Shown piece by piece: positions 561-8,227 of a DNA stretch of 64,000 nt (position 1 is the stretch's first letter; each line of letters opens with the position of its first letter). The DNA lies in NCBI RefSeq assembly GCF_018035235.1, contig NZ_WPCV01000005.1, positions 124,001-188,000 of the forward strand, read 5' to 3'. The notes beneath the pieces were generated by a model. That model was not told where the DNA came from, searched no databases, and worked only from the letters and a program-made list of their open reading frames with translations. This DNA is from Citrobacter sp. On2M. GTDB lineage: Bacteria > Pseudomonadota > Gammaproteobacteria > Enterobacterales > Enterobacteriaceae. Position numbers and translations under genes: made by a program.

Positions 561-2075
561 ATGGATACCTGGATTTATCTTTCACAAGGTTTCGCGGTGG
601 CCATGACGCCGGAAAACCTGGTCATCGCCCTGATTGGCTGTTTTGTCGGTACCATTGTCGGGCTGTTGCCTGGACTGGGGCCAATCAACGGTGTGGCGAT
701 CCTCCTGCCTCTGGCCTTCGCTTTGCACCTGCCTGCTGAGTCTGCACTGATCCTGCTGGCGACAGTCTATATCGGCTGTGAATACGGCGGGCGAATCTCG
801 TCGATTTTGCTGAACGTGCCCGGCGATGCGGCGGCGATTATGACCGCGCTGGATGGTTACCCGATGGCGCAGCAAGGCCGCGGTGGTGTGGCGCTTTCTA
901 TCTCTGCGGTCAGCTCTTTCTTTGGTTCGCTCATCGCTATCGGCGGCATCATTCTGTTTGCCCCGGCATTAGCCCAGTGGTCGCTGGCCTTCGGTCCGGC
1001 TGAATACTTTGCCTTAATGGTTTTCGCCATTGCATGCCTCGGCAGCATGATGGCGCAAAATCCGCTGAAATCATTTCTGGCAGCGCTCATCGGTCTGGGA
1101 CTCGCGACCGTCGGCGTAGACGCCAATACCGGGGTTTATCGCTTTACCTTTGACAGTGTCCATCTTTCCGACGGTGTGCAGTTTATCGTGGTGGTGATTG
1201 GGCTGTTCTCTGTCTCAGAAATATTGTTAATGCTGGAACATACCAGCAGTGGCCAGACGCTGGTGCGTAAAACGGGTCGCATGCTATTTAACGCTAAAGA
1301 AGGCGCGCAGTGCGCTGGCGCAACCTTGCGCTCGTCGGTGATTGGCTTTTTCGTCGGGGTCCTGCCCGGCGCAGGCGCGACCATTGCGAGTGCTATCACC
1401 TACATGACGGAGAAAAAACTCAGCGGCAACAGCGACAGCTTCGGTAAAGGTGATATACGCGGAGTGGCGGCCCCCGAAGCAGCAAACAACGCCTCGGCCT
1501 GCGGCTCGTTCATTCCGATGCTGACGCTCGGCGTGCCGGGTTCCGGCACCACGGCGGTAATGATGGGCGCGCTAACGCTTTACAACATCACACCGGGGCC
1601 GGCCATGTTTACCGAGCAGCCGGATATCGTCTGGGGGCTGATTGCAGCGCTGCTGATTGCCAACGTGATGCTGCTGGTGATGAACATCCCGCTGATCGGT
1701 TTGTTTACCCGTATGCTGACCATCCCGCTGTGGTTTTTAGTACCGGCTATTGCAGCGGTTTCAGCCGTGGGCGTGTATGCCGTCCACAGCACCACCTTCG
1801 ATCTGGTGCTGATGGTTGCCTTAGGCGTGCTGGGCTACATATTGCGTAAAATGCACTTCCCGATGTCGCCGTTAATTTTAGGCTTCGTTCTCGGGGAAAT
1901 GTTGGAGCAGAACCTGCGCCGGGCGCTGTCCATCAGTAACGGGAGTATGGATATTCTGTGGGCCAGCGGCGTGGCAAAAGTGCTGTTGGTAATGGCGGTA
2001 GTAGTTATTGTGGTCCCGCCGGTGCTGCGCCTGATCCGTAAACGTAACAGTAAACCGCAGGTAGATGCAGGTTAG
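561..2075 (+). CDS. tctA: TctA, large permease subunit of the tricarboxylate transporter
   Basis: A polytopic inner-membrane protein of 504 residues, the typical TctA length. The two characteristic glycine/proline-rich repeats are visible: [16 protein letters not shown] near residue 35 and [15 protein letters not shown] near residue 268, which point to an internal duplication. It forms the transport channel for citrate-type substrates with TctB. The open frame extends upstream to 423, but that part overlaps tctB. The ATG at 561 follows a GGAG ribosome-binding site and gives the family length. No tctDE two-component genes are visible in this window. Confidence 0.94.
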
Positions 2076-2083
2076 TCAATATT

Positions 2084-2117
2084 GCCGGCCAACTACGCGA
2101 TGGCGTTGTTGGCCGGC
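2084..2117 (+). terminator. Stem-loop after tctA
   Basis: A perfect 10-bp inverted repeat, GCCGGCCAAC and GTTGGCCGGC, separated by 14 bases and starting eight bases after the tctA stop. There is no long T run, so it may work as a weak or factor-assisted terminator or as an mRNA 3'-end stabiliser. It lies between tctA and the converging diguanylate cyclase gene and marks the left edge of the AT-rich block. Confidence 0.55.
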
Positions 2118-2131
2118 TAACATACTGCTGG

Positions 2132-3502
2132 TTATGGCTGTACGCACGGACACGTTAGCTCGTGGGGACCGCAGTAATACATCACTTTATTTCTGCCTGC
2201 ATTTTTTGCGGCGTAAAGTGCAGCATCAGCATAGGAAACGACTTTATCACCCGATTCATCTTTCGGAGAACTAAAATAAACCCCGATGCTTATGGTCATC
2301 TGTTCTTTAATACCAAATACATTTGGCGGTAACGTGAGTTTTTCTACATTTTGTCGAATCCGCTCAGCCACCACCATAGCCTCCTGTTTATCATTGCATT
2401 TTAATAAAATGCCAAACTCCTCTCCCCCCACCCGAGCAAATACATCGGAGTCACGAATCGATTTATTAATGATATAAACGATGGAGACGATCACCTTATC
2501 TCCCTCCTGATGTCCATAAGTGTCGTTAATCCTCTTAAATTTATCAATATCAAGCATCAACACACAAACATTTCCACGTAGCATGGCAGAGTTAAGTGTT
2601 TTATAGAACAGCTTACGATTATAAATTTTGGTTAGTGCATCTCTCATAGAGGATTCCGTTTCTCTTTTTAGTAGCAGGAAAGTATTAAACATTAAAATTG
2701 AGATTACGCATAATGCGCTTATTATTTCAAGTCCGCGACTGACGTACCAGATATACATACTGTACTCATCAAGAGTGATAAGTAATAAATTGGTTAATAT
2801 CGCCGAGCAGCACATCAGAGCGATACTGACCCACAACGCATTGTTCAATCGGGTTTTCAATGTAAGGTAGACTAAAGCTATGGCCCAACCTGCAATTAAC
2901 GAATAAATGTATCTTAATTCCCAATGCAACGTCACCAGATCGTCTTTTAAACAGGTGATATCTATCACGACATCGGGATTATAACTTGATAAATTATGAG
3001 CAAGAATACCTATTGCGACCACAACGATGACCGTTATCATCTCCAGTATCGGCTTCTTTTGTTTATCCTCAATGACAATCGTATCGTTTCTATACGCTTT
3101 AATGCCGATACACAGCGTAATGATAAAACTCAATTGCCGAAAGTAGTAAAAGATAGCAATGTCATTGCTTCTCTGTTCGATTGAAACACTATCATTAATC
3201 AGCGCCTGCACAATATAGATCGTTTCAATAAAATAGATATCACAGCTAATAAATGCTATACCCAGAATAAAGATATAGGATAACTCTTTTCGACATAGAT
3301 ATTGAAACAGCATAAACAAAAACATTATTGCATAGAGAAACAACAGTCCCACAATGACGATTAAGTATGTTGTTTGCGGGACGTTTTTTACACTTATTTT
3401 AAATTGCGAAAGACATAACCCCACGCCCAAATACAAGACGATCAATATAACATAAAAACCAATAATCCACCCATTACTAAATCTATACGTTTTTTTGTTC
3501 AT
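2132..3502 (-). CDS. Membrane diguanylate cyclase, MASE4-GGDEF (DgcT-like)
   Basis: A 456-residue protein. About residues 10-285 hold seven or eight hydrophobic segments resembling the MASE4 sensor of E. coli DgcT (YcdT), with shared stretches such as NDIAIFYYFRQ and the DEYSMYIWYVSRGLEIIS region. The rest is a GGDEF domain with the DIDKFKRINDTYGH motif, an intact GGEEF active site and an RDSD inhibitory site five residues before it. It should therefore make cyclic di-GMP from GTP and be product-inhibited. The frame opens at 3532, but the ATG at 3502 has GGAT at a usable distance upstream and starts MNKKTYRFSN. It converges on tctA and begins the accessory block. What it senses cannot be told. 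Confidence 0.88.
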   Translation of the reverse strand: MNKKTYRFSNGWIIGFYVILIVLYLGVGLCLSQFKISVKNVPQTTYLIVIVGLLFLYAIMFLFMLFQYLCRKELSYIFILGIAFISCDIYFIETIYIVQALINDSVSIEQRSNDIAIFYYFRQLSFIITLCIGIKAYRNDTIVIEDKQKKPILEMITVIVVVAIGILAHNLSSYNPDVVIDITCLKDDLVTLHWELRYIYSLIAGWAIALVYLTLKTRLNNALWVSIALMCCSAILTNLLLITLDEYSMYIWYVSRGLEIISALCVISILMFNTFLLLKRETESSMRDALTKIYNRKLFYKTLNSAMLRGNVCVLMLDIDKFKRINDTYGHQEGDKVIVSIVYIINKSIRDSDVFARVGGEEFGILLKCNDKQEAMVVAERIRQNVEKLTLPPNVFGIKEQMTISIGVYFSSPKDESGDKVVSYADAALYAAKNAGRNKVMYYCGPHELTCPCVQP

Positions 3503-4253
3503 ACTTATCCAGGTGATGAATATTTCTGGCATTTTTATATTATTTATCTTTCCTTTGCAAATAAAGTTTATTAGTCATAATACAACTGTATGTTTTCTAA
3601 GAAAATTAAATTACTCATCAGCCAGATGTATAAAATTTATTATTGACATAAAATTCACTATTTTGTGTCGATATTGTTACCACACACAAAAAAAATTATA
3701 ATTTTCATAATAGCAAGTAATCCTCCTAAAAAAAATTAACGTAGGTGCCTTAGAGATTTTTAAAAAGTTATACTCGTATGGCTTACACATCCAGTTACCA
3801 GAAGTACTTATGCTTTCATCACACAAAAGAGTTAATTTCCACCAGACGGTTGTCTGGCAATGCATTGCACATTTCTTATGTTAGATCGATGCACATTTTA
3901 GTCCACATGGTAATTATTAGATTTTTATTCAAATTATATTATTTTTAATAAATTTAACATTTAATAAACATCAATTTTCTATTATATTGATTAAACCTTT
4001 ATCATTATTTAATAAATACCAGGAGCATTATCGCCAAATTCATCAAAACACATAATGTTATAATTAACAAAAAAACATCTTCACAATTGATTTTATTGGA
4101 TTTTTTGTAACCCCTGAATTAAATCAACCCGCAAAAATGCCAAATATAAAACTGTGAGCTATTTACTAAATCAATGTTAAAGCTATTATTAAAGAAGAGT
4201 TCATCAATGAACCATTCAAGCCAATAGTTATCATTTTGCGCCATGAGGAAGAA
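3503..4253. other. AT-rich intergenic region of about 750 bp, divergent promoters
   Basis: There is no convincing gene on either strand. The stretch is markedly AT-rich, with many A and T runs, and separates the diguanylate cyclase gene (leftward) from the PapB-like gene (rightward), so it must hold both promoters. Such sequence is a typical target of H-NS and StpA silencing; that is inferred from composition. An AGGAG motif at 4021 is followed only by an ATT-started 28-codon frame, which I do not call. Confidence 0.5.
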
Positions 4254-4550
4254 ATGAACATTAAGGATGGCTTTGCAGAACATTACTCTTCTATTCCAGC
4301 GCCAGGGACCCTAACACCAGGAATGGTAGATAAAACCCATTTCCATTTGCTTATTGATATATCCAGTATATATAGTGAAAAGATTATATACGCACTCGAA
4401 CTTCATTTAGTTAATGGATTAAAACGAAATGAAGCTTGTCTTATCAGCGGCATCTCACAGAGTTGTCTGTCAATTAAACTCAGGCAATTGCAACGCATTA
4501 GTCGCTCCGTCGTACAGATGTACCCTTGGTATTGTGCAAATATTAATTAA
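4254..4550 (+). CDS. PapB/FocB-family transcriptional regulator, orphan copy 1
   Basis: A 98-residue protein whose residues of about 25-95 match the PapB/FocB/FaeA-like pattern: FHLLIDISSIYSEKIIYALE, then a region with LVNGLKRNEAC, SIKLRQLQRIS and a final MYPWY. PapB-type proteins oligomerise on AT-rich DNA and control phase-variable fimbrial operons. The start at 4254 has GAGGA four bases upstream; a TTG at 4236 in the same frame is less likely. A LuxR-type gene follows after 19 bases, so the two are probably one operon. No fimbrial subunit, usher or chaperone gene is nearby, which makes its target unknown. Confidence 0.82.
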   Translation: MNIKDGFAEHYSSIPAPGTLTPGMVDKTHFHLLIDISSIYSEKIIYALELHLVNGLKRNEACLISGISQSCLSIKLRQLQRISRSVVQMYPWYCANIN

Positions 4551-4569
4551 CTTACCTAATTCATATAAA

Positions 4570-5145
4570 ATGAGTAATAATATTAAGATCGTGTGCGTAT
4601 CGGCTAATAGCTATCTGAAGTTAGCCATCCAGAACCTGGTGGATTTCACATGGATAAATGAATCAGACCTTTCGCCCGCGTTTTGCTATCCATCAGCAAG
4701 CATCGGCATCATGTTGCTAGTAACCACGGGTAGTACCCTTAAACAACGTATCAAAATGCTCGATATGACGCGTAAGATTTCCAACAACTACGGCTGGAAA
4801 GGCATTGTGTTATATGATCAAAAAAATGCGAATGAAAGACGTTTTGTCGATATGACCGGACTGAGGGCCTATGACATCAGAACGCCGATTGCGGATTTAA
4901 AAGATTCCATTGAAAGAAGTACTTATCTTCGCTCCCGTCATCCTCACTGTGCTAACGGCATATTGGGGCTTACAAAATATCAATGGGAAGCATTATGGCT
5001 CTCATTTATAGGTGTTGAGATAAAAGAGATTGCAGAAAAGACTGGACGTACACCACCAACATTGTATGCGCACAGGAAAGCAGGTCTAAACTATTTAAAA
5101 TTGAATCATCTTCATGAATTCAAAAATGTCATAGCTAGCTTTTAA
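4570..5145 (+). CDS. LuxR-type helix-turn-helix regulator
   Basis: A 191-residue protein. The last 60 or so residues form a GerE/LuxR-type DNA-binding domain (LTKYQWEALWLSFIGVEIKE, then IAEKTGRTPPTLYAHRKAGL). The first 110 look like a degenerate receiver-type domain without a clear phosphorylation aspartate, as in several enterobacterial LuxR-like regulators such as RcsA, BglJ or CsgD. The frame is open from 4429, inside the PapB-like gene. I chose the ATG at 4570, just after that gene's stop, although its ribosome-binding site is poor and translational coupling is likely. Ligand and targets are unknown. Confidence 0.75.
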   Translation: MSNNIKIVCVSANSYLKLAIQNLVDFTWINESDLSPAFCYPSASIGIMLLVTTGSTLKQRIKMLDMTRKISNNYGWKGIVLYDQKNANERRFVDMTGLRAYDIRTPIADLKDSIERSTYLRSRHPHCANGILGLTKYQWEALWLSFIGVEIKEIAEKTGRTPPTLYAHRKAGLNYLKLNHLHEFKNVIASF

Positions 5146-5215
5146 TGTAGATACTTGAGAAAATCATTCTACTCCATTTTAAGTTCCTCTCCTCTATACG
5201 TTAATGAATATTTTA

Positions 5216-5248
5216 ACGCCCCTTATCGATGCAAATCATCAGGGGCGT
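5216..5248. terminator. Bidirectional hairpin between the LuxR-type and Wzz-like genes
   Basis: A perfect 8-bp inverted repeat, ACGCCCCT and AGGGGCGT, with a 17-base loop, lying between two converging genes. AT-rich sequence flanks both sides (TTTTA on the left), so it could terminate transcription from either direction. It is also one of the few GC-rich spots in the block. Confidence 0.6.
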
Positions 5249-5269
5249 AATTACGTTAAGTGGAGCAGT

Positions 5270-5944
5270 TTACTTAATATTAAACTGACAATTTATACAT
5301 TTATTTTCTTCTTGACGGTTATGGTAGCTTAACATCACCAATAACAAAGAAAAAATAAGTCCTACAAGCGCTGACAATAAAAGAACCATAGTAGTATTGT
5401 ATCGAGCCACCACTACCGGCTCTGATATAATAACAATATCGCCCTTATCCAAATAACGTTTCGTTGCCACTGCGATTAGATAGGCACGCGATAGGGTCTC
5501 TGTTGATTTATTATCAGCGTGCCGCGCATTTAACTCCTGCAATACGTTGTCGACATCATCTGCATACCATGCATTGAGTGCGGCGTTAAGAGAGAGCAGT
5601 GAGTTCTCAATTTCATTTGCTTCATTCCTGGAAACCAAGGCTTTCAGATTCAGGGTATTACTTTTTTTATTTTCATTGACACTAAAGCGACTATCAACTC
5701 TGGACACCAATAATGTTTTGAATATTTCATTACGGCATTCAACATCATCGTTGCATGAAGTGTAAAAAAATGGTGAGTAAACTTTCGGTGTAATATCAAG
5801 TGTTAACGTCACCTTATCGTTATTGATGTAACAAAACACGCCACCTATTACAATACAGAAAAACACGATAAATGATATTAGTAGATATTTATTAAAGGCA
5901 TACTTTATAAAATCTAATAAATCAATTTCTTCATTAGAGCTCAT
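5270..5944 (-). CDS. Wzz-like chain-length-determinant family membrane protein
   Basis: A 224-residue protein with the polysaccharide co-polymerase layout: an N-terminal IDLLDFIKYAFNKYLL motif leading into a membrane helix (about residues 20-42), a periplasmic part with a probable coiled region, and a C-terminal helix (MVLLLSALVGLIFSLLLVML). It ends with a short cytoplasmic tail containing two cysteines. Known Wzz proteins set O-antigen or capsule chain length but are usually longer (about 320 residues or more), so the periplasmic domain here is short. The ATG at 5944 has GGGGTG upstream and is preferred over one at 5959. No glycosyltransferase or polymerase gene is near, so the function is uncertain. 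Confidence 0.65.
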   Translation of the reverse strand: MSSNEEIDLLDFIKYAFNKYLLISFIVFFCIVIGGVFCYINNDKVTLTLDITPKVYSPFFYTSCNDDVECRNEIFKTLLVSRVDSRFSVNENKKSNTLNLKALVSRNEANEIENSLLSLNAALNAWYADDVDNVLQELNARHADNKSTETLSRAYLIAVATKRYLDKGDIVIISEPVVVARYNTTMVLLLSALVGLIFSLLLVMLSYHNRQEENKCINCQFNIK

Positions 5945-5959
5945 TTTTTCACCCCACAT

Positions 5960-6055
5960 TTACAAAGTGACAATCCAGGAAAGCAAGCATGCGATAAAAA
6001 CTGTGCTTACAGCCAGAGCACTAATGAATATCTTTGCTGATAAAGTATACTTCAT
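5960..6055 (-). CDS. Candidate 31-residue single-span membrane peptide upstream of the Wzz-like gene
   Basis: A short open frame reads MKYTLSAKIFISALAVSTVF followed by IACLLSWIVTL and a TAA at 5962-5960. It has two lysines near the N-terminus and then an unbroken hydrophobic stretch of about 22 residues, the profile of a small inner-membrane protein. GGATGATTAA precedes the ATG and may hold a weak ribosome-binding site. It ends 15 bases before the Wzz-like ATG at 5944, on the same strand, so the two would share an mRNA. The peptide is not one I recognise. Chance hydrophobic ORFs of this length do occur in AT-rich DNA, hence the moderate confidence. Confidence 0.5.
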   Translation of the reverse strand: MKYTLSAKIFISALAVSTVFIACLLSWIVTL

Positions 6056-6586
6056 TTAATCATCCATCTATCCCAGCCATATTTAACTTTGTATTATGAT
6101 AGTAAAATAAGACCAAGTGTAAACATGGAAAAAAAGTGGCTATTTTTTTTGTTATTCAACCTAACAAATACACAGTAAATTGTTAATAAAATAGTTAACG
6201 AATTGTGATATAAAAATGCACGTATCGTTATTACAAATAAAAGTTATATAAATTTAATAAAATATATCGCTAAACAAAGAATAATCCATAACTCAAGTTA
6301 AAATGTAACAATATGTTTCATCAACCAAAGGAAAATAATCACCACCGCAAAATTTCATAAAAACACTTGAAAACCTACTCTATACATCGCCGTCCAGGAT
6401 CGATAAACACTTAATCATTCGCTCATGCTTCACAATAATGAACTCGTTATATATATCATTTTTTATATAAATTTATATAAAATTAGATTATTGATTTTTA
6501 CGGATTTTAGATTAAATTAGAGTTATTACAAATTATTAAATTTTATATTTTTCTATGGCAAAAAATGAACTTTTGAAACCAAAGCC
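6056..6586. other. AT-rich intergenic region between divergent genes
   Basis: About 530 bp of strongly AT-rich sequence with repeated TTTATATAAA-like stretches near 6450-6490. It must contain the leftward promoter for the small peptide and Wzz-like gene and the rightward promoter for the second PapB-like gene. I saw no credible ORF and no recognisable operator. The composition suggests binding by H-NS-type or PapB-type proteins, which is inference. Confidence 0.45.
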
Positions 6587-6598
6587 ATGGATCCTTTT

Positions 6599-6943
6599 AT
6601 GTCACAGCGCCATCCTTCTCAGTCACACTGCCGTCCACGTAGCTATCGTTCTTTGTCAAATGGAAGCCTCAGCGAAGAACATTTCAATGTTTTAATTAAA
6701 ATCGCTCGCATCAACAGCAGGAATAATATTGCAGCACTAAAAGATTTCCTGGTCGTCGGGAAGAAACGCAAAGATGCCTGCAACGCGAATAAAACTTCAT
6801 TAAGTTACTTCTCAGTTAAACTGCGTCAGTTACAGAGTATTAGCGACGATATTATTACCATCTACCCTTTCTACGCCGAGTATTCACAGTCGTATTCGGT
6901 CTCTGCCAATAGCGCAACTGAGCAATCAAAGCAGTCGCCATAA
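6599..6943 (+). CDS. PapB/FocB-family transcriptional regulator, orphan copy 2
   Basis: A 114-residue protein. Residues of about 28-92 carry the PapB-type core: EEHFNVLIKIARINSRNNIA, then KDFLVVGKKRKDACNANK, YFSVKLRQLQSIS and IYPFY. It is closer to the classical PapB pattern than the first copy at 4254, and the two have diverged well beyond a recent duplication. An ATG at 6587 is in frame, but GGAT before the ATG at 6599 makes the latter slightly better; both are possible. It stands alone, with no fimbrial operon on either side. A hairpin lies 25 bases downstream. Confidence 0.82.
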   Translation: MSQRHPSQSHCRPRSYRSLSNGSLSEEHFNVLIKIARINSRNNIAALKDFLVVGKKRKDACNANKTSLSYFSVKLRQLQSISDDIITIYPFYAEYSQSYSVSANSATEQSKQSP

Positions 6944-6968
6944 ATCTGAAGAAGAAAAAGACTAATTG

Positions 6969-6987
6969 GCCACGTGGAACACGTGGC
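6969..6987. terminator. Perfect hairpin after the second PapB-like gene
   Basis: GCCACGTG and CACGTGGC form an 8-bp perfect inverted repeat with a 3-base loop, 25 bases after the stop codon. No T run follows on the plus strand, so it is a weak intrinsic terminator at best. The CACGTG cores could also be a protein site. Confidence 0.4.
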
Positions 6988-7111
6988 ACCACTCAAAAAA
7001 TTCATTAATAACCAAAAAGTTAGATAGACAAAAAATCTGCTGGTATGACGCCTGATAGCTCGCCTTCCCGCCTCACCCCGTGATATCCACACCGTTTGCA
7101 ATGTTAAATAA

Positions 7112-7131
7112 TTGTTGCTTTTGATCACAAA
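7112..7131 (+). promoter_or_regulatory. Candidate CRP site upstream of glaH
   Basis: TTGCTTTTGATCACAA contains a perfect right half-site (TCACA) but a poor left half. In E. coli the csiD promoter is known to depend on sigma-S and cAMP-CRP, with a CRP site well upstream of the start, which fits this location about 120 bases before the gene. The sequence match alone is weak. The whole 6944-7249 gap holds only this and the hairpin at 6969. Confidence 0.35.
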
Positions 7132-7249
7132 TAATAAACAAAGAAGCTCATTCTGTGCGCGTTTTTCAAAAATGTAGATATTTTTAATTTATGGCTACGA
7201 AATGAGCTGCGCCATATCTCCCTGACAATCTACTGAGAGGAACGATTTG

Positions 7250-8227
7250 ATGAACGCACTGACTGCCGTAAAACCTAACGCAGAAGATCCAGCCCAGCAC
7301 TACAGCGGTTTCACGTTGAAACCATCAGCCCAGTCCCCACGCCTGCTCGAGCTGACTTTTTCCGCTGAGACCACTGAGCAATTTCTGCAAGCCGTGGCGC
7401 AGTGGCCGGTACAGGCACTGGAATACAAATCCTTCCTGCGATTCAAAGTCGGCAAAATCCTTGATGACCTTTGCGGCAATCAGTTGCAACCTCTGCTGCT
7501 GAAAACGTTGCTCGATCGTGCCGAAGGCGCACTGCTGATCAATGCCGTTGGCGTGGATGATGTGGCGCAGGCAGAAGAGATGGTCAAGCTGGCGACGGCG
7601 GTTGCGCATCTTATTGGACGCTCCAATTTTGATGCGATGAGTGGGCAATACTATGCACGTTTTGTAGTGAAAAATGTCGATAACTCAGACAGCTATCTGC
7701 GTCAGCCGCACCGTGTTATGGAGCTACATAACGACGGAACCTACCTCGAAGAGGTAACAGACTATGTACTGATGATGAAGATTGACGAGCAGAACATGAC
7801 CGGCGGTAACTCGCTGCTGCTGCACCTCGACGACTGGGAACATCTGGAGCAGTACTTTACCCATCCGCTGGCACGCCGCCCCATGCGCTTTGCCGCGCCG
7901 CCAAGCAAAAACGTGAGCCAGGAAGTGTTCCATCCGGTGTTTGACGTTGACCAGCAGGGTCGTCCGGTAATGCGTTACATCGACCAGTTCGTCCAGCCAA
8001 AAGACTATGAAGAAGGCGTCTGGCTGAGCGACCTGTCCGACGCGCTGGAAACCAGCAAAAGCATTATTTCCGTACCGGTTTCAGTCGGTAAATTCCTGCT
8101 GATCAACAACCTGTTCTGGCTACACGGTCGCGATCGTTTCACCTCGCATCCTGACCTGCGCCGCGAACTGATGCGCCAGCGTGGTTATTTCGCTTACGCG
8201 ACCAACCACTACCAGACCCATCAGTAA
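7250..8227 (+). CDS. glaH: Glutarate 2-hydroxylase GlaH (CsiD)
   Basis: A 325-residue Fe(II)/2-oxoglutarate-dependent oxygenase, the same length as E. coli CsiD. It hydroxylates glutarate to L-2-hydroxyglutarate in the lysine/cadaverine breakdown route. The iron ligands are visible as HND (in [12 protein letters not shown], about residue 160) and a distal histidine in [11 protein letters not shown]. The following arginines in RRELMRQR include the likely 2-oxoglutarate anchor. The ATG at 7250 follows a GAGAGGA ribosome-binding site. It is the first gene of the glaH-lhgO-gabDTP-csiR operon, induced on carbon starvation in E. coli. Confidence 0.95.

Follow-up and report, generated by a model that had tools for sequence, protein, structure and literature searches.

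The window analysed here is a 64,000-nucleotide stretch of the genome of Citrobacter sp. On2M (contig NZ_WPCV01000005.1 of GCF_018035235.1, positions 124,001–188,000; coordinates below are window positions). Between tctA and glaH it carries a block of AT-rich DNA encoding a MASE4-GGDEF diguanylate cyclase, two PapB-family proteins (PapB1 and PapB2), a LuxR-like protein, a YkgH-type membrane protein and a peptide of 31 amino acids (aa). It was found that the block occupies the place held by divergent genes for a LysR-type regulator and a short-chain dehydrogenase (SDR) in 15 of 15 relatives with both flanks, that it contains no pilus genes, and that the peptide and its YkgH-type partner recur together elsewhere. 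The pieces have separate histories in the genomes sampled, because the LuxR-like protein was found in one of 17 genus genomes (its own, and none of the 16 congeners), none of ten cyclase relatives was accompanied by the other block genes, and YkgH-type relatives occurred in other settings. With moderate confidence, we read the block as a horizontally acquired islet that replaced the LysR-SDR pair in one Citrobacter lineage, a mosaic (the cyclase, an orphan PapB1/LuxR-like pair, an orphan PapB2 and the peptide/YkgH-type pair) which would combine trans-acting surface regulators with a pair tuning polymer length.

The tctA–glaH interval in Citrobacter

A preliminary description of this DNA had placed five genes in AT-rich DNA between tctA and glaH. 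All five were present where described and both flanking genes were confirmed, but the open reading frame (ORF) of the 31-aa peptide had been missed (Table 1). The comparison sample consisted of 17 Citrobacter genomes including that of On2M, all of which contain glaH. For the other 16, the DNA upstream of glaH was retrieved; 15 of these stretches also include tctA, and in the sixteenth the contig ends before it. None of the six block proteins gave a tblastn match at 1e-4 in any of the 16 stretches. The interval was 1,884–1,952 bases long in 12 of the 15 relatives, and 7,247, 7,309 and 11,461 bases in the other three. The GC content of the block was 0.35, compared with 0.52–0.56 in the twelve 1.9-kb intervals. 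The assignment of the LysR-SDR pair was based on ORFs read in five relatives and on blastn alignment of the other ten to L028, whose pair passes Pfam models. Alignment with the relatives stopped at 2065–2088 on the left, and similarity started again at 7065–7102 on the right. The replacement becomes visible only by comparison with relatives, not in the window by itself. Three of the 15 intervals contained different extra genes (about 5.4 and 9.6 kb), located beside glaH in L032 and L033 and beside tctA in L038, so that the interval is a variable locus.

Table 1. Features of the block and of related loci
Feature	Position	Strand	Evidence or remark
Hairpin just 3' of tctA, left block edge	2084–2117		Inverted repeat of 15 nucleotides, 93% complementary
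MASE4-GGDEF diguanylate cyclase, 466 aa	2132–3532	-	Pfam over cut-off; GGEEF and RxxD
PapB1, PapB-family regulator, 98 aa	4254–4550	+	PF03333 86.8 bits; FocB structure 3m8j 4.2e-8
LuxR-like regulator, 191 aa	4570–5145	+	Helix-turn-helix (HTH) part like that of GerE-EAL proteins
YkgH-type short Wzz-like membrane protein, 224 aa	5270–5944	-	tblastn to YkgH records, profile search, hydropathy
31-aa single-span membrane peptide ORF	5960–6055	-	Motif kept upstream of relatives
PapB2, PapB-family regulator, 118 aa	6587–6943	+	PF03333 83.9 bits; FocB 3m8j 1.9e-12
Right block edge and conserved region upstream of glaH	7084–7246	+	Alignments in 16 relatives
Three 487–496-aa relatives of the LuxR-like protein	L046 1126–2592; L047 664–2154; L048 1066–2529		
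Seven HTH-papB pairs	L006 8963–10086; L007 9785–10878; L087 9524–10722; L119 7022–8013; L121 17094–18296; L122 6029–7119; L123 7114–8095		
Small plasmids with the peptide/YkgH-type pair	L169–L173, L166; hits H114–H154 of the peptide search		

The block genes use both strands and form at least four transcription units. PapB1 was taken to start at ATG 4254, its frame being also open from TTG 4236, and 19 bases separate it from the LuxR-like gene on the same strand; the peptide ORF ends 15 bases upstream of the YkgH-type gene. Terminator-like sites numbered 4, compared with 2.6, and none of the RNA families searched for was found in the block. A megablast search of the block DNA against a collection of 5,426 E. 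coli genomes gave no match. PADLOC found no defence-system match for four block proteins, and the defence-system reading was dropped.

It is conceivable, though unlikely, that the block is foreign DNA that has no function at present and is silent or decaying. The interval is variable, as described above, H-NS commonly silences AT-rich DNA of foreign origin, and promoter-like sites in the block (19) did not exceed those in shuffled sequences (mean 23.8). Against this, six of six reading frames and the active-site motifs are intact, and distant relatives, too, have the peptide together with its partner.

Cyclase, LuxR-like and PapB-family proteins

The cyclase scored well over the Pfam cut-offs for MASE4 (157 bits, cut-off 28.4) and GGDEF (159.9 bits, cut-off 23.8), and its active-site motif RDSD-x5-GGEEF is kept. 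Judging from the sequence, it has the residues of an active enzyme, and it would add cyclic di-GMP (c-di-GMP) in answer to a membrane signal. It had been called DgcT-like. The MASE4-GGDEF architecture is indeed shared with both CdgI and DgcT of E. coli, but CdgI-like is the nearer label, because cdgI was the top-scoring annotated E. coli gene in the plasmid records (43.2% identity, compared with 35.9% for dgcT records). MASE4 occurs once in this genome, and 52 of 392 family genomes match the membrane part of the cyclase. A search of the genome_contigs collection returned 10 relatives, six of which, all from Citrobacter, are single genes between mdtG and msyB with 63–68% identity; thus, unlike CdgI and DgcT, the window cyclase lies in an islet while its closer Citrobacter relatives stand singly. 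No match to a PapB, the LuxR-like, the YkgH-type or the 31-aa protein was found near any of the 10 (threshold 0.01, flanks up to 10 kb).

The LuxR-like protein showed no Pfam GerE match, even with E allowed up to 1, and matched nothing in NCBIfam or PHROGs; two other HTH-type Pfam models were reached below cut-off (E of 0.04 and 0.09). Its nearest relatives were the HTH parts of three 487–496-aa proteins (E of 1.1e-6, 2.2e-4 and 2.9e-4), and the one run through Pfam, that of L046, passes both GerE and EAL. The term LuxR-like, which the preliminary description had given as LuxR-type, is thus taken from these relatives, and the EAL domain is not in the window protein itself. Matches occurred in four of the 392 family genomes, the three outside On2M being partial and inside these longer proteins, and no relative was found among plasmids, genome_contigs or viral contigs. 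Its structure predicted from the single sequence (mean pLDDT 42.3) was too poor for a fold search.

The preliminary description had suggested a trans-acting switch for surface structures encoded elsewhere. In its strongest form, one integrated c-di-GMP-responsive switch, the cyclase would feed the LuxR-like and PapB proteins, and these would set adhesins and polymer length. In its favour, the block genes are neighbours that all have to do with surface structures; the closest relatives of the LuxR-like protein, matched through their HTH part, have an EAL (c-di-GMP) domain where tested; and E. coli CFT073 has a LuxR-family gene, hyxR, near ykgH, with hyxB and hyxA in between. However, the companions were absent around all 10 cyclase relatives, the genes are spread over both strands and several units, and the LuxR-like protein is without EAL; we consider such an integrated switch quite improbable. 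What stands of the suggestion is the part on orphan surface regulators, by homology and by a published orphan PapB protein acting in trans; the part on one coherent switch does not, as the genes do not travel together in the genomes sampled.

Both PapB proteins, as described earlier, belong to their family: they exceed the PF03333 cut-off of 29.4, match one PHROGs regulator family and keep an Arg and a Cys four residues apart (R-x3-C) in the DNA-binding part, as in FocB. These Arg and Cys residues of PapB/FocB are considered important. PF03333 proteins occurred in 5 of the 17 genomes from the genus and in 14 of the 392 from the family. The On2M genome contains 17 ushers and four PF03333 genes, two in the block, one near a Tad-type locus (L006) and one near a chaperone-usher locus (L007). 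Outside the block, the genus and family searches gave 25 papB genes over the cut-off, and the surroundings of every one were read by eye. Seven of them are immediately preceded, in the same orientation, by an HTH-like gene (221–273 aa) that is 25–63 bases away or overlaps as called. Pilus genes adjoin the pair in each case: ushers at four loci, Tad-type ATPases at two and type-IV-pilus-like ATPases at one. These assignments were confirmed with models for ushers and T2SSE ATPases, and Tad was told from type IV by eye. The same type of pair serves chaperone-usher, Tad-type and type-IV-pilus-like loci, and the pilus genes of L087 precede the pair. The seven partners are 29–57% identical to each other; as the three run through Pfam gave no match, HTH-like is our own reading of them.

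Compared with these cassettes, the PapB1–LuxR order in the block is reversed and pilus genes are absent. The LuxR-like protein matched the seven partners with E of 0.31 (blastp) and 0.06 (phmmer) at best in a set of 18, so that it does not clearly appear to belong to their group. PapB1 scored best against the HTH-coupled group, with the PapB of L006 in its own genome (44.6%), and PapB2 against the PapB of chaperone-usher locus L118 (48.7%). A firm placement of PapB1 as sister of the HTH-coupled clade was rejected, its support falling from 0.922 in a tree of 26 rows, made without the G394 PapB and the second PapB of the G076 Tad locus, to 0.577 in one of 28 rows with another MAFFT setting and trimming; IQ-TREE likewise gave PapB1 no firm position. 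The pseudogene fragment G246:C108 was kept outside all PapB trees.

The absence of fimbrial genes noted earlier was confirmed: 252 ORFs of at least 100 aa from 20 PapB-associated loci hit only PapB and a weak HTH match (E of 0.015) in the block, with no pilus remnant. The second suggestion of the preliminary description, a lost fimbrial operon with surviving regulators, is very unlikely. A PapB-HTH pair could be such a leftover, given the seven cassettes, but no remnant was found, the gene order is the reverse, the partner is not clearly of the family, the PapB1 placement is weak, and the interval of the relatives holds the LysR-SDR pair, not a fimbrial operon. Nor was an intact operon with the same genes seen in neighbouring strains, where no ortholog was found; at the family level, the two further PapB genes of On2M each adjoin an HTH-like gene and pilus genes.

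Other settings of papB were also observed. In L084 (8287–10041), L085 (281–4919) and L120 (2616–7284) it precedes, by eye, a glycosyltransferase-like and a repeat-rich autotransporter-like gene. In L115 (7000–7263) and L116 (6748–7011), from two species of another genus, it lies at the same place near priA and metB (by eye) without evident adhesin genes, so that the PapB orphans of the block are not unique.

Two PapB genes and a LuxR-like gene without a structural gene nearby suggest action elsewhere, and the orphan surface regulators probably act in trans. In published accounts, PapB-type proteins bind AT-rich DNA in oligomeric form and cross-regulate adhesins (PMC5956150), and the PapB-family protein TosR has broad effects on other adhesins in trans (PMC5956150, PMC10392849). 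By analogy with TosR, PapB1, PapB2 and the LuxR-like protein may act on AT-rich adhesin promoters at the ushers and the Tad-type locus of this genome. The tos locus of E. coli CFT073 resembles the block in encoding TosR with the LuxR-family proteins TosE and TosF, but it has its own adhesin and export genes, whereas the block has none; the similarity of TosF to the window LuxR-like protein is weak (27.5%, E of 2.7e-4, set of 18). Orphan PapB regulators are already known in print: the account of the pMB2 papB/pefB paralogue describes a PapB-family gene outside an adhesin cluster that acts in trans on host adhesins (PMC7734786). That gene is single and on a plasmid, whereas here two PapB genes lie with others on the chromosome.

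The 31-aa peptide and its YkgH-type partner

The YkgH-type protein had been described as Wzz-like. Remote similarity was confirmed, but there was no Pfam Wzz match, the FepE model was reached at 1.4e-4 with 20.9 bits against a cut-off of 300, and GNVR matched below cut-off (Pfam, E of 0.08), a cut-off passed by two of its relatives. Thirteen plasmid-collection records, all from Escherichia and eight of them annotated ykgH, matched the protein with 19.6–21.8% identity over 90% (E of 6e-4 or better). A three-row profile of the window protein, G060 and E. coli YkgH matched 58 of the 392 family genomes. Six matches were strong (E of 5e-27 or better), all from short proteins; two of these (On2M and G060) are themselves profile members, and three share a genus and are almost the same in sequence. 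The 24 weaker matches listed as loci were without exception full-length ORFs of 323–347 aa, read as Wzz. As the window protein is short for Wzz and failed its model, it is not filed as Wzz and belongs with the short YkgH/GNVR-type proteins (~220 aa). It may still work like Wzz, having two predicted membrane segments (hydropathy windows starting at residues 13–25 and 182–191) and remote Wzz/GNVR similarity. The structure predicted from its single sequence (mean pLDDT 47.0) was too poor for a fold search. It had no viral-contig relative and no PHROGs match, and a phage origin of the LuxR-like and YkgH-type proteins was rejected, neither source matching either protein.

Directly upstream of the gene in all six strong YkgH-type matches lies an ORF of 31 or 34 aa starting with M[KR](K)YTxxA[KR], a motif defined on these same upstream sequences. 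It was found in none of the 300-base stretches upstream of 24 full-length Wzz genes, and neither E. coli K-12 nor CFT073 has it before ykgH. In all loci collected, 1.52 Mb with overlaps included, it occurs 18 times, always in a copy of the peptide ORF. Between the window and G319 peptides, 14 of 31 residues are identical, a value reached by 1 in 200,000 shuffles. Nonsynonymous changes equalled or exceeded synonymous ones in 8 of 10 pairs, so that the codon test gives no support and the putative coding status is based on conservation across distant relatives. The idea that the peptide mimics membrane segments of its partner was discarded: in 10 comparisons over five modules, the lowest P was 0.12, no better than shuffles.

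Relatives of the pair occur at other chromosomal places and on small plasmids. G319 has its copy on a contig of 3,068 bases, and the identical sequence is recorded as a Leclercia plasmid that has a Rop-type gene. With the pair as query, 54 plasmid records were obtained, of which 41 reached 60% identity and 13 did not. With the peptide alone, 41 records were obtained (a separate count, equal in number), of 3.1–9.6 kb and from eight genera, 34 of them typed mobilizable; in one record the first four residues are missing, and in another the match spans just 16 residues. In 33 of these 41 rows no feature is listed under the peptide ORF, the gene table being incomplete. Of five plasmids read, the peptide was intact in four and cut by a transposon in one; the other genes listed on them, in the same incomplete table, were for mobilization, replication, transposon and hypothetical proteins. 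The Rop and Mbe-type names suggest ColE1-type plasmids. Within the titles and abstract openings of the open-access literature, no account of the peptide or of the function of the pair was found.

Known systems offer partial parallels. A Wzz chain-length protein is encoded on the 3-kb plasmid pHS-2 (PMC12004945), with which the pair is compared by description only, the YkgH type being far shorter than the Wzz ORFs above. Iap of phage D3 is a 31-residue peptide that mimics a Wzz membrane segment and acts on Wzy-Wzz (PMC12004945); the likeness to it, also by description, is in size and setting only, given the shuffle result above. Mutants of hyxA and hyxR have altered O-antigen chain length (PMC3789825), and the UpaB cluster, with the regulators AutA/AutR, is inserted between betA and ykgH (PMC4844996); by position, AutA/AutR would be hyxA/hyxR. 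This island has LuxR-type regulators near ykgH as in the block, but it includes an autotransporter and a recombinase, is without PapB and cyclase, and, in the two E. coli sequences, has no peptide motif upstream of ykgH. As a suggestion, ykgH may contribute to the hyx O-antigen phenotype.

It is tentatively proposed, as an idea that is unlikely to hold, that the peptide and the YkgH-type protein form an undescribed two-gene cassette, in which a short co-polymerase and an Iap-like peptide would convert the chain length of host surface polysaccharide. Such a cassette would be spread by small plasmids and chromosomal islets, and in On2M it would have come to lie next to orphan regulators of adhesins by capture, which would allow joint changes of polymer length and adhesin exposure.

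Assessment of the islet reading

Several points weigh against reading the block as an acquired islet of surface regulators with a length-tuning pair. No direct repeats of at least 14 bases were found in 2040–7260, and no integrase or tRNA gene at the block marks a route of arrival; as reported before, neither flanks it, the five tRNA genes of the window lying at 39–40 kb. Loss in the relatives is formally possible, because the comparison was among congeners rather than sister strains of the species. The LuxR-like protein passes no family model, the Wzz model failed on the YkgH-type protein, and the polysaccharide role of YkgH is putative. Every regulatory and enzymatic step was inferred from sequence. 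In the proposed scheme, the YkgH-type protein and its 31-aa partner would adjust the chain length of surface polysaccharide.

The new lead is the peptide/YkgH-type pair, and the regulators mainly add a chromosomal example without neighbouring adhesin genes. If the pair alters surface-polymer length, it would give a function to some 'cryptic' plasmids and would provide a candidate effector for the O-antigen phenotype of the hyx genes adjoining ykgH.

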